The position numbers were made by a program, and so were the translations under genes. Of a stretch of DNA of 42,308 nucleotides, positions 38,116 through 42,308 are shown one piece after another. The DNA lies in assembly GCA_024404815.1 (NCBI GenBank), contig JAKSPL010000019.1, forward strand, positions 1-42,308, written 5' to 3'. How positions within the stretch are numbered: the stretch's first letter is position 1; every line of letters begins with the position of its first letter. Below the pieces are notes generated by a model, which saw only the letters and a list, made by a program, of their open reading frames with translations, searched no databases and was not told where the DNA came from. The DNA is from Oscillospiraceae bacterium. GTDB lineage: Bacteria; Bacillota; Clostridia; Oscillospirales; Ruminococcaceae.

Positions 38116-40254
38116 TTAGCTGTCGGCGGATTCTGCATTGTAGATCTTTTGAAGCTGGTCTTTGAAATAGTTGTTGATGATCGCATCGCCTGCTTTGTCG
38201 AGATAGAGCCACCGATAATCCTCTATCGGAATCGCACCGGCGACATCGCCCATATCGTCATAGCTTGTGTGAATATGGTGGTACAGTGCCTTGAAAGCCT
38301 TTGCGTCAAGCTTTATGTAATCTTCAGGCGGGATCTCACGGTAGAATCCCCAGGTTTCACCGAATGCAAATTCCTGTTTCGGAATCAGTTTGAGGTCGTT
38401 CTCCCGGAACACGTCTTCTATTGTCGGAACAGGCAGGATGTCTTCCATGACGGCAATCGTATTCTTGAATGCTTCGGGAATATACAGTCGGGAACCAGGA
38501 AACTGTCCCATAAACCAGAGCTGCGTTCCGTCGTCCATGGTTTCTTCCAGATATTCCCGATATTCGCCGTACAATGCGTCATAAACAACACGGCTTTGGA
38601 AGAAATATTCGTAATATTTGAAATCGTTTGCTGTCCATCCACTGCTGTCCCAGTCCTTGCGGTAGGCTTCCAGCAGGCGGTCGCAGTCCTCCGCCGAAAG
38701 TTTCGGTACAGAAAGGTAACCGAAATTATTATCATAAGGAGAGTATTTCGTGCCGAATTGCAGCATATGGGCATCGCTGTTGTTTGCATCGAGTATTTTT
38801 TTCAGCATTGTACACCAGAATTCCTTGTTGGATGTCGAATGTATCATCTGTTCAAGGGCTTCCTTTTGTTCATTTGGGATCGGCATGCCATAGAATTTCT
38901 GTTTATTACCGTAGTTGTATTCTATGTCGATTATTAATGCAGCCTCGGATGGCATGGTCTTTCTGCTTTCAGCGAGCACTTCGTTGATGGAATCCACATT
39001 CGCAGGTTCCCGAAGATACAATGTAGTATTTTCCATTTCGGCTTTGACTTCCACCAGTCCGAGCTTTGAGGGGGTCCTGTCGCCAAAGCCGAGGAAATGC
39101 GTATAGTTCAGACCGAAGAATACGATGAAAGCGGCGGCGGTGGCGAGAACGTAGCCTGCGATACGGCGCGGCATTTTTTTGAGGTTTCTGGTGGTGATGA
39201 GGTCGAGGATCAGCAGGATCAGCAGGCAAGCTATAACTGCAAGCAGCGGATAGAGAAGCGGACGTTCCCATTCCATATACGGATAAACTGCGTTTTCAGC
39301 ACTAATTTCTGTGAACAGGATGACAACAAACATCACCGTGAAAAACTGCATCAAATGGTATGCCGAGCGAATCGGGAACGGCTTCGAAACGGTTTCAGCC
39401 TTGCGCTTGCCGTGAACGAACCATGCAGCGAGGAATTCGAGAACAATGCAGGCTGCAAAGCCCAGCAGGCAATACAGCCCGATCTGAGCCCTGTTGCACT
39501 CATAGAGGATTACGTCAAAGCCGAAGTCTCTGAACGTGGGGCCCAGGGGACCAGCAAGATGGGAGAGGAAGTATTCAAAAAATGCACCTTTGTAGACACA
39601 CTGCATCTGGATAAGCTGTACGGATGCATCATTGGCGATAAAAGAAGTCAGCACGCCGAATACCACGAGTGCAAAGGCGAGCGACAGATGATTGCCGCAG
39701 AAATTGACACACATGACCGTCAGCGTATACAGCCAGAGCGCGACAAGGTCGTAAATCAGCAGACAGAGGAAGAACTCTGTTGGTGCTTCCATGATGCTGA
39801 GCACAGCCGCAGTGATGATATTGGAGATCAGCGTGGGGAGCAGCCATACGGTAAGTCCGCCGAGGTAGCAGCTGAAAAACCGCTGGTTGTGATTCATCGG
39901 CAGGCTGAAATACAAGTCCGTGTCGGATTTTTTCAGCAGATAGGAGAATGCCTGTATCGCGGCGTTGGCAATCATGAACACAATGACGACCATTGCCAGT
40001 ATACTGACGATGGTCAGCGTGGTTTGGAAGATTTCTGACATGTCTTGTGGAGTGGTTACCGCCTCATTGGGTGCTGCATAATAATCCGACATTTCCGAGT
40101 CGTATTTACGGAGTTCCACTCCTACAAACAATAAAACCGGAAGTCCGAGCAGAGAAAGAAATGTCAGGAAGATCATCAGCAGACGGTTTTTGCGGACAAT
40201 GCCGCGGAAATTACTGAGAAACGGGTTCATCGTTTTCAAAGACGTAGTTGCCAT
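38116..40254 (-). CDS. ABC transporter permease with large external domain
   Basis: This 712-residue membrane protein has about nine helices within residues 23-390. They are followed by about 320 residues with no further helix, probably outside the cell. It partners the ATPase just upstream, overlapping it by 44 bases. The ATG at 40254 follows GGAGGTG; earlier in-frame codons lack a site. The SDTDLYFSLPMNHNQRFFSCY segment is typical of permeases paired with YtrB-like ATPases. What it moves or senses is unknown; such GntR-controlled systems often respond to cell-wall-active compounds. Confidence 0.86.
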   Translation of the reverse strand: MATTSLKTMNPFLSNFRGIVRKNRLLMIFLTFLSLLGLPVLLFVGVELRKYDSEMSDYYAAPNEAVTTPQDMSEIFQTTLTIVSILAMVVIVFMIANAAIQAFSYLLKKSDTDLYFSLPMNHNQRFFSCYLGGLTVWLLPTLISNIITAAVLSIMEAPTEFFLCLLIYDLVALWLYTLTVMCVNFCGNHLSLAFALVVFGVLTSFIANDASVQLIQMQCVYKGAFFEYFLSHLAGPLGPTFRDFGFDVILYECNRAQIGLYCLLGFAACIVLEFLAAWFVHGKRKAETVSKPFPIRSAYHLMQFFTVMFVVILFTEISAENAVYPYMEWERPLLYPLLAVIACLLILLILDLITTRNLKKMPRRIAGYVLATAAAFIVFFGLNYTHFLGFGDRTPSKLGLVEVKAEMENTTLYLREPANVDSINEVLAESRKTMPSEAALIIDIEYNYGNKQKFYGMPIPNEQKEALEQMIHSTSNKEFWCTMLKKILDANNSDAHMLQFGTKYSPYDNNFGYLSVPKLSAEDCDRLLEAYRKDWDSSGWTANDFKYYEYFFQSRVVYDALYGEYREYLEETMDDGTQLWFMGQFPGSRLYIPEAFKNTIAVMEDILPVPTIEDVFRENDLKLIPKQEFAFGETWGFYREIPPEDYIKLDAKAFKALYHHIHTSYDDMGDVAGAIPIEDYRWLYLDKAGDAIINNYFKDQLQKIYNAESADS

Positions 40255-41143
40255 AACCAAGCACCTCCAATTCGTAGATAAAGATTTCTTCAAGTGTCAG
40301 GGGGATCAGATCGCAGACCACAGGATGCAGCGCAGAAAACCGTTCGCACAGTTCCTCCTCATCGCCCTTAACGACCAGATGGTACACGGATTGCTGTTTT
40401 TCAAAGTGGAGAATTTCCGTGCCTGTTTCTGCGAGCTGTTCTTTGGTGTACGCAGGTGCATCCGTAGGGAATGCGAGCTGTAATTTGTGCATATTCGAAC
40501 GAATGTCGTCCAGACTGCGCGAGAAGATAATGCGGTTGTCGTGGATCAGTGCCGCGCTGTCGCAGATCTCGTTGATTTCGGTGAGGTTGTGCGTGGAAAT
40601 GATGATGGTCATGTTTTCTTCGAGCATACGGTCGATCAGCAGCTGACGCACCAGCTTTCGCATCGCAGGGTCCAGACCGTCAAACGCCTCGTCCAGCAGA
40701 AGATATTCGGGCTGTGCGGCAATACCGATCATGGTGATCGCCTGTCGTTTCATGCCTTTTGAGAATGTGGAAAGCGGCTTATTGGTCGGGAGCGAAACGG
40801 CTTTCAGCATTTTTTCGAGCAGGGCATCCGAAAAGCGCGGATAATACAATTTGTAGAAGTTTGCAAGACTTTTGATGGTGAATGAATGGTACTGTACCGT
40901 TTCGTCTGATACAAAAAAGACGCGGCATTTGTTATCGGGGCTGTTGAAAATGGGCTTCCCGTCGAGCAGCACTTCGCCGCTGTCCGGCTGATATACACCG
41001 CTCATCAAACGGAGAATCGTGGATTTTCCTGCACCGTTCGAACCAATCAAGCCGAATGCACTGCCTTTTGGAATATCAAAACTGATGGAATCGAGAACGG
41101 TTTGTCCGTCGAAGGCTTTTGTGACTTGTTTGAATGAAATCAT
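40211..41143 (-). CDS. ABC transporter ATP-binding protein, YtrB-like
   Basis: This 310-residue ATPase has Walker A GSNGAGKS (34-41), the signature FSKGMKRQ with Lys for Gly at the second position, and Walker B LLLDEAFDGLD. The SKGM form and the Ala in DEAFDGLD are characteristic of the YtrB-like group found with GntR regulators. About 90 residues follow the ABC core. The start overlaps the gntR stop (ATGA), with AAGGAGCA in front. Confidence 0.92.
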   Translation of the reverse strand: MISFKQVTKAFDGQTVLDSISFDIPKGSAFGLIGSNGAGKSTILRLMSGVYQPDSGEVLLDGKPIFNSPDNKCRVFFVSDETVQYHSFTIKSLANFYKLYYPRFSDALLEKMLKAVSLPTNKPLSTFSKGMKRQAITMIGIAAQPEYLLLDEAFDGLDPAMRKLVRQLLIDRMLEENMTIIISTHNLTEINEICDSAALIHDNRIIFSRSLDDIRSNMHKLQLAFPTDAPAYTKEQLAETGTEILHFEKQQSVYHLVVKGDEEELCERFSALHPVVCDLIPLTLEEIFIYELEVLGYGNYVFENDEPVSQ

Positions 41144-41526
41144 GTTTGATGCTCCTTTCCATTTTGTATAAACTCGCTGCTGAGGGTGCGGATTCTGTCG
41201 CAGAGGGTATCCGCATCCACACCGACACGCATTGCGTTTTGTGCGGCGGTATCGAATTCTTTCAGGATGTCTGAATGCACATCGGCTTTTTGTATCTTGC
41301 CGATGAAACTGCCTCTGCCGGAGAGTGAATAGATGACACCATCGCGTTCGAGGTTCTGGTAGGCTTTCGAAACGGTATTGGGGTTGACGGAGAGGTCTTT
41401 GGCGAGCTGTCGGACGCTTGGAAGCTGAGAACCTTCCGGCAGGGCGCCTTTGACAGCGAGTTCAATGATTTTTCGGTAGAGTTGTTCGTAGATGGGAACA
41501 CGGCTTTGCAGGTCAATATCGAACAT
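41140..41526 (-). CDS. GntR family regulator, YtrA subfamily
   Basis: This 128-residue repressor has the GntR winged helix (about 10-75), with PIYEQLYRKIIELAVKGALP, the recognition region LPSVRQLAKDLSVNPNTVSKAYQNLE, and the wing RGSFIG. A short tail of about 45 residues replaces a ligand domain, as in YtrA. It should bind the palindrome in its own promoter. It is the first gene of the ABC operon, with a full AAAGGAGGTG site. Confidence 0.94.
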   Translation of the reverse strand: MFDIDLQSRVPIYEQLYRKIIELAVKGALPEGSQLPSVRQLAKDLSVNPNTVSKAYQNLERDGVIYSLSGRGSFIGKIQKADVHSDILKEFDTAAQNAMRVGVDADTLCDRIRTLSSEFIQNGKEHQT

Positions 41527-41582: not shown

Positions 41583-41611
41583 ATTATAGCACGGCTTTTT
41601 CATTTTGTCAA
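41583..41611 (-). promoter_or_regulatory. Promoter of the GntR/ABC operon
   Basis: TTGACA (41611-41606) and TATAAT (41588-41583) on the minus strand, 17-bp spacer, directly followed by the palindromic operator. Confidence 0.9.
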
Positions 41612-41658: not shown

Positions 41659-41694
41659 AAAAAAGAAAATGACCGATGCGGGTGCATCGGTCAT
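41659..41694 (-). terminator. Intrinsic terminator downstream of the Nif11-like peptide gene
   Basis: A perfect 11-bp stem ATGACCGATGC/GCATCGGTCAT with a 4-base loop is followed on the minus strand by TTTTCTTTTTT. It closes the transcript that begins right of the window. Confidence 0.92.
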
Positions 41695-42109
41695 ATATAA
41701 AGAGGAGAGGAAGTTTTCCAATGTGCAAGATGTCATGAAAAAGCTTGTACGGGATGTAGTAAGAGTGTAGTGAGATGTAAGAGTGAAATTGTAGAGAGAG
41801 TGTGTGGGGAGGGGGAGTGCAAAAACGAATAGGGCAGTGAAAGTATTTCCGTGTTGTCAGGTTGAAATTGTGGAATGATCGTGAGTGCGATGTAAGAGTG
41901 CGTCAGTTGTGAGAAAATAGTGCGTGAAGTAGTGTAAAGATAAAGTAGATGATCATAGAAATGTAGAAAATGGTAGAAATTTGTAGTAAGACGGAGTGGT
42001 GAGATGTTAGAACGTCAGTAGAAAAAAGGTTGTATGTTTGTGGGATAGGGGTGTTTGGCGGGGAGATGTGCAGTGAGATGTTTGCTGTGACGGAATGCTG
42101 TGATGTTGA
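41695..42109 (-). other. Long G-depleted, C-rich untranslated region
   Basis: No gene fits on either strand. By hand count 41701-42109 has about 146 G and 26 C on the plus strand, so the minus-strand RNA is about 36% C and 6% G with few possible stems. It lies between the stop of the Nif11-like peptide gene and an intrinsic terminator. The composition resembles a Rho-loading (rut) region. It may instead be a 3'-UTR-derived small RNA. Confidence 0.65.
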
Positions 42110-42308
42110 TTAGAGTTTGGAAAAAAGCCAGTTCGCAATTTTGACAACAAACGGACTGATCGTGATTGGTCCATACGGAGCAATTGCACCGCCGCTGACA
42201 TTTCCCAGCTGTTCTTCTGTCAGTTCGTCGTCACCGCCGCCGCAGCAGACGCGGACAAGGTCGCTTGCGAATTCCCGAAGTTCGTTCGGTGTGAAATCGT
42301 AACCGTCT
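42110..42308 (-). CDS. Nif11-like leader peptide precursor, 5' end cut by window
   Basis: The frame is open to the right edge, giving 65 visible residues without the start. It reads DGYDFTPNELREFASDLV, then VCCGGGDDELTEEQLGNVSGG. GYDFTPNEL matches the G-Y-x-F-T-x-x-E-L pattern of Nif11-derived leaders, and LTEEQLGNVSGG is a typical double-glycine end. The predicted 25-residue product starts AIAPYGPITISPFVVKIANW; it is hydrophobic with two Lys and no Cys. Nif11-type leaders serve several RiPP classes, but with no Cys in the core, lanthionine or thiazole formation is not possible. The processing genes may lie further right. Confidence 0.8.
   Translation of the reverse strand, partial: DGYDFTPNELREFASDLVRVCCGGGDDELTEEQLGNVSGGAIAPYGPITISPFVVKIANWLFSKL

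Follow-up and report, generated by a model that had tools for sequence, protein, structure and literature searches.

The window analysed here is the whole of contig C11 (42,308 nucleotides) of an Oscillospiraceae bacterium genome, G000, which comprises 1.97 Mb in 59 contigs and is 84% complete. At the right edge of the window, the minus strand carries a frame (42307..42110) of 65 codons and a stop that is open to the edge. An earlier note on this DNA had taken this frame, which has no start inside the window, for a Nif11-like precursor and had proposed extending the sequence rightwards for its start codon. The window ends with the same 55 bases with which contig C43 begins, 55 being the longest exact overlap, and the start of C43 was the only other match listed for the window's end bases. 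On C43, the frame extends 37 codons upstream to an ATG preceded by a ribosome site, AAGGAGGTGA. The gene therefore encodes 102 residues, made up of a 77-residue leader ending in ..DELTEEQLGNVSGG and a 25-residue Cys-free core. The start codon was thus found where the earlier note had pointed, together with a ribosome site, and the motifs that it had quoted are present in the 65-residue translation; the larger protein of another family that it had considered as the alternative did not turn up, as the gene starts 37 codons upstream. The features of the gene and its surroundings are the following.

42110..42307, minus strand: 3' part of the precursor gene, 65 codons and stop (open reading frame, codon usage)
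Contig C43, L003:55-165, minus strand: the other 37 codons of the precursor gene (frame continuation, ribosome site)
42188..42307, minus strand: C-terminal 40 of the 77 leader residues, ending in GG (TIGR03798 positions 40-68, 19.8 bits)
42188-42193, minus strand: GG codons, the double-glycine site
42113..42187, minus strand: core of 25 residues, Cys-free, the predicted mature peptide (translation)
42254..42308, no strand: 55-base overlap identical to the start of C43 (sequence identity, synteny with G013)
41695..42109, minus strand: G-poor, C-rich untranslated stretch 3' of the gene, 415 nt (base composition)
41669..41694, minus strand: intrinsic-terminator-like hairpin of 11 pairs, then the T run TTTCTTTTTT (terminator scan)
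41583..41611, minus strand: promoter-like site of gntR, 12/12 consensus, where homology with G013 resumes (promoter scan)
41140..41526, minus strand: flanking gene for a GntR-type regulator, present in G013 without the precursor (open reading frame, profile match, synteny)

The frame is supported as coding because its codon usage lies within the span of 0.19-0.36 per codon shown by the 12 genes behind the usage table. The window piece scored +0.29 and the C43 piece (36 codons before the overlap) +0.28; for each piece, the two other sense frames were negative and the antisense frames scored at most 0.13. The window piece was found in one of 30 genus genomes, G000 itself (E 0.1), where the precursor is single copy. 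Relatives were found neither in two scans of genome-contig collections nor among plasmids, phages (with the C43 piece among the queries) or PDB sequences. The one match among viral contigs (L058) was attributed to chance, because the matched stretch has a stop codon and crosses the start of another frame. Other Nif11 candidates in G000 were also discarded, as they are antisense to a larger frame (C15) or inside a 470-residue frame (C45). Among 396 genomes of the bacterial family, the best leader relative, in G178, is 33% identical over 55 residues; it was set aside, its C-terminal part being different and without the acidic GG leader end, and its GG near the end standing in another context. 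This G178 frame (L011 1354-1668) codes for 104 residues, resembles a leader in its N-terminal part (33% identity to the C43 piece), and adjoins genes that by eye resemble urease accessory genes. The lack of relatives in the genus, genome contigs, viral contigs, plasmids and phages would suit a chance open frame or a decayed gene, as would the promoter scan of C43 upstream of the gene, in which a promoter-like site was not found. Such an origin is nonetheless very improbable given the ribosome site, the in-range codon usage, the terminator-like hairpin and the profile matches on either side of the assembly break described below.

The join of C11 and C43 is supported by a congener, G013, in which a single contig carries the genes that flank the precursor on C11 and on C43. 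There, six genes of C43 (at 76-89% identity, with the sixth compared over 194 of 819 residues, to the end of the fetched stretch) are collinear with three window genes, those for the GntR regulator (76%), an ABC ATPase (71%) and a permease (28%). These three window genes lie together at 38116-41526, and the large permease is the one whose G013 counterpart is only 28% identical, against 71-76% for the others. In G013, the glycosyltransferase gene and gntR are adjacent and divergent, and neither precursor piece matches at the locus. Homology between the two genomes ends near C43:269 and resumes at window position 41611, in the gntR promoter; the intervening segment measures about 86 nt in G013 and about 910 nt in G000, the alignment on the glycosyltransferase side being weak and gapped. 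The precursor sits in a segment that is absent from G013. A close gntR occurs in 3 of the 30 genus genomes, namely G000, G013 and G017, the last of which has a different gene upstream of gntR and no precursor match. It is probable that a segment with this single gene was acquired between the glycosyltransferase gene and the gntR promoter. Gain in G000 is favoured because the 29 other genus genomes, several of them incomplete, gave no match, the comparison of gain with loss at the locus itself being between two genomes, G000 and G013. A profile scan of the flanks, which took in some of the window frames, recognised glycosyltransferases on C43 and the GntR regulator, the ABC ATPase and the permease in the window. 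The further precursors, modifying enzymes and C39 exporter that the earlier note had wanted sought beside the gene did not materialise: none of the scanned flanking frames was recognisable as a further precursor, a maturase or a C39 exporter.

Downstream of the gene, the minus strand at 41690-42109 contains 35% C and 6.4% G. Its minor/major G:C ratio is 0.17, whereas the 4110 other 400-nt steps taken through the window do not go below 0.59, and none of 12 other fetched stretches that were scanned was as extreme (lowest 0.26 in 300 nt, L065). A second G-poor stretch, on C59, is equally extreme and turned out to encode a poly-Thr linker. A 115-nt repeat spacing suspected in the present stretch was dropped, as it was not among the six best periods of a self-comparison. 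The hairpin at 41669..41694 is a probable transcript end; shuffles of the region yield 1.0 such hairpin site on average. Stretch and hairpin together outdo 98 of 100 shuffles in folding (z -2.2), the centroid structure is largely unpaired except for the hairpin, and an Rfam search of the window returned no match at gathering scores. Rho-dependent terminators have a C-rich, G-poor transcript. The G-poor stretch resembles such a terminator, but its length and end hairpin are odd. The corresponding site of G013 lacks the stretch.

Profile comparisons of the leader were made per piece, so that the 102-residue whole was scored only in parts. TIGR03798, which has a cut-off of 32.3 bits, matched the window piece at positions 40-68 with 17.8 bits (E 0.003), the leader part of that piece alone with 19.8 bits, and the C43 piece at positions 25-52 with 17.7 bits. 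In the search that the earlier note had recommended, the two pieces thus matched collinearly and jointly spanned model positions 25-68, each staying below the cut-off. The Pfam Nif11 model gave 18.4 bits for the C43 piece, under its cut-off of 23.8; a Pfam search of the window piece gave no match, and the 37 residues before the overlap, scored alone, matched no model. G000 was not listed in a family-wide search for Nif11 leaders at E 0.01, and a looser search gave 0.007 and 0.02. Compared by eye with the N11P/bacteriocin logo as its legend describes it, the leader end ELTEEQLGNVSGG fits at six of seven named positions, with Glu at -13 and -10, Leu at -12, Thr at -11, Leu at -7 and Val at -4, followed by GG; the exception is position -8, acidic according to the legend and Gln here. 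We class the leader as Nif11-type and not as a certified member of TIGR03798.

The core, AIAPYGPITISPFVVKIANWLFSKL, is hydrophobic, has a net charge of +2 and contains no Cys, one Gly and two Ser among its 25 residues; both Cys of the 65-residue window piece are in the leader. A Nif11-type double-glycine leader followed by a hydrophobic core without Cys, as first proposed for this frame, is thus supported. The precursor resembles the N11P family (TIGR03798; Haft, Basu and Mitchell 2010) in its leader match, its double-glycine site and the presence of an NHLM exporter in the genome. It differs in that each piece scores under the curated cut-off, the gene is single copy, the core is Cys-free whereas N11P cores are rich in Cys, Gly and Ser, and no maturase or exporter was recognised adjoining it.

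Since the core lacks Cys, it can contain neither lanthionine nor sactionine. No LanC-like enzyme (PF05147) was found in the 84%-complete G000, which together with the Cys-free core sets the gene apart from class II lanthipeptide precursors. The core could instead be altered in trans by a maturase, for example a radical SAM enzyme acting at Ser/Thr or Tyr-Gly, and the product would then be a modified RiPP. G000 does encode one SPASM radical SAM protein, on C23; in another genome, G032, the exporter and the Nif11-like precursors are separated by a radical SAM/SPASM-like frame, and about 16% of G000 is missing from the assembly. However, the 2.5 kb around the C23 gene contain, by eye, dockerin-like neighbours and no exporter, and with neither a LanC-like match nor Cys in the core we regard a modified product as unlikely. 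The exported product is likely unmodified.

A wider look at the bacterial family showed that cores of this kind are frequent. Application of a GG-motif filter to the 30 loci with the best Nif11-leader matches gave 37 cores from 19 loci (one core being counted twice), and 19 of the 37 listed lack Cys, for example GIIDTVKEWFGSLFGK and DIIDKLVEFFGGFFK. The Cys-free Nif11 kind is therefore not new. When six neighbourhoods of Cys-free cores were chosen for inspection, five contained an NHLM exporter, which was absent in G295, and the ABC1 proteins of these five exporters are 40-41% identical to that of C59. Both counts weaken the earlier note's view of an unmodified Nif11 product as something new. 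A literature search of titles and abstract starts returned, among the matches listed, none announcing an unmodified Nif11 class. At the four exporter-bearing loci other than that of G032, a scan of some of the frames revealed sigma factors (L066 and L067) and unknowns, and a maturase may be encoded there as well.

G000 encodes two C39 exporters, on C59 and C8, neither of which is on the contigs of the precursor. The NHLM cassette on C59 is complete, with 166.7 bits for the HlyD-like TIGR03794 (cut-off 156.2), 944.4 bits for TIGR03796 (853.3) and 713.1 bits for TIGR03797 (709.4). Among the 30 genus genomes, TIGR03794 exceeds its cut-off in G000 alone and is weaker in six others (best 80.7 bits, G001); TIGR03796, searched in seven of the 30, was positive only in G000. 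That the window piece and an over-cut-off TIGR03794 are both unique to G000 is a single coincidence and counts as weak evidence. Of the 396 family genomes, 37 have a Nif11-leader match, and TIGR03796 was found in 21 of these compared to 23 of the 359 others, G000 counting as one of the 23; where a leader exceeds the cut-off, the figure is 12 of 14 (Fisher's exact p = 2e-13 for any match and 6e-11 over the cut-off, relatedness ignored). These exporter counts may be low, because two exporter candidates per genome were scored and an NHLM exporter on contig C23 of G358 was missed. In the excerpted text of Haft 2010 (PMC2887384), N11P genes adjoin the three exporter families TIGR03794, TIGR03796 and TIGR03797. 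We assign export to NHLM on the grounds of this co-occurrence with Nif11 leaders and of Haft 2010; as the exporter is on another contig, the link to the precursor is one of co-occurrence and not of neighbourhood.

The NHLM loci of four genomes also code for an alignable protein of 61-66 residues in which an invariant AAG takes the place of GG (L046 3369-3566, on C59; L069 6600-6785; L067 6656-6838; L068 11897-12079). Those of L046, L069 and L067 were scanned and had no NCBIfam or Pfam match; the protein is possibly an accessory of the NHLM exporter. Downstream of the NHLM exporter on C59 (L046 9318-16000) are genes for proteins resembling an anti-sigma-factor antagonist, a TIR-FHA protein, a PP2C phosphatase and a Ser/Thr kinase. 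Also adjoining the cassette is a gene for a very long poly-Thr protein (L046 3-2978), truncated by the contig start, with dockerin-like repeats at its end as judged by eye.

The exporter on C8 is of ComA type (TIGR01193, 627.9 bits; cut-off 523.85) and lies downstream of at least seven short frames whose leaders end in GG (L045 5270-7064). Two of these frames were scanned against the class IIb model TIGR03949 (cut-off 21.5), one scoring over the cut-off (25.8 bits) and one under it (18.3 bits). The window piece matches the same model weakly, with 14.8 bits, or 15.2 for its last 47 residues, both below the cut-off. By eye, the last 13 leader residues are alike in the C8 class and the Nif11 class, and it is within the last 13 leader residues that the excerpted text of the LahT study (PMC6363468) places the recognition motif. 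The same precursor could thus be processed by the C8 exporter along with class IIb-like bacteriocins, its leader being merely a long one of the double-glycine type. However, the leaders on C8 measure about 18-24 residues by eye, compared to 77 residues with a Nif11 match here, and the exporter tied to Nif11 leaders, by our survey and by Haft 2010, is NHLM, although the survey covered NHLM exporters alone and the comparison is hence one-sided. We consider processing by the C8 exporter improbable. The precursor shares with the lactobin A/cerein 7B family (class IIb, TIGR03949) a hydrophobic core behind a GG leader and a weak match around the GG, and differs from it in scoring 14.8 bits against a cut-off of 21.5 and in its long, Nif11-type leader. 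It resembles LahA1-9 of Lachnospiraceae bacterium C6A11, for which, as far as the excerpted text goes (PMC6363468), Nif11-type GG leaders are cut by the C39 exporter domain of LahT; there nine precursors cluster with the exporter, unlike the single orphan gene described here.

Altogether, we favour with reasonable confidence the reading in which a complete 102-residue gene, with the window-edge frame as its 3' end, encodes a secreted peptide whose unmodified core is exported by NHLM. We infer that the leader would dock on the NHLM peptidase-exporter (TIGR03796) of C59, that a C39 peptidase would cut the precursor after GG, and that the unmodified, hydrophobic 25-residue core of net charge +2 would be released and may act on the membranes of competing bacteria. 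Among shuffled sequences, 23% reach the helical moment of the whole core and 10% that of its last 13 residues, so that amphipathicity was dropped as not significant. Because the helical moment is not exceptional, the proposed membrane action rests on hydrophobicity and analogy. A secreted signal (pheromone) in place of a bacteriocin, likewise exported by NHLM, is a less probable but credible alternative. The precursor is single copy, the core is short, two related NHLM loci (L066 and L067) have sigma factors, and no immunity gene was recognised in the scanned flanks, though the scan was not aimed at such genes; on the other hand, no receptor or regulator is linked to the precursor, and the neighbouring GntR gene occurs in G013 without it.

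For the family as a whole, we tentatively propose, as a possibility short of an even chance, that Nif11 leaders serve NHLM-exported, unmodified, Cys-free, membrane-active peptides, whose genes spread alone as single-gene inserts and rely in trans on an NHLM exporter that is already resident. Searches for precursors often take modifying enzymes or clusters as their starting point. An orphan gene such as this one, which an assembly break splits and whose exporter is encoded on a different contig, escapes enzyme-first and cluster-first mining alike. If Cys-free cores are released unmodified, they could be synthesized and tested directly.
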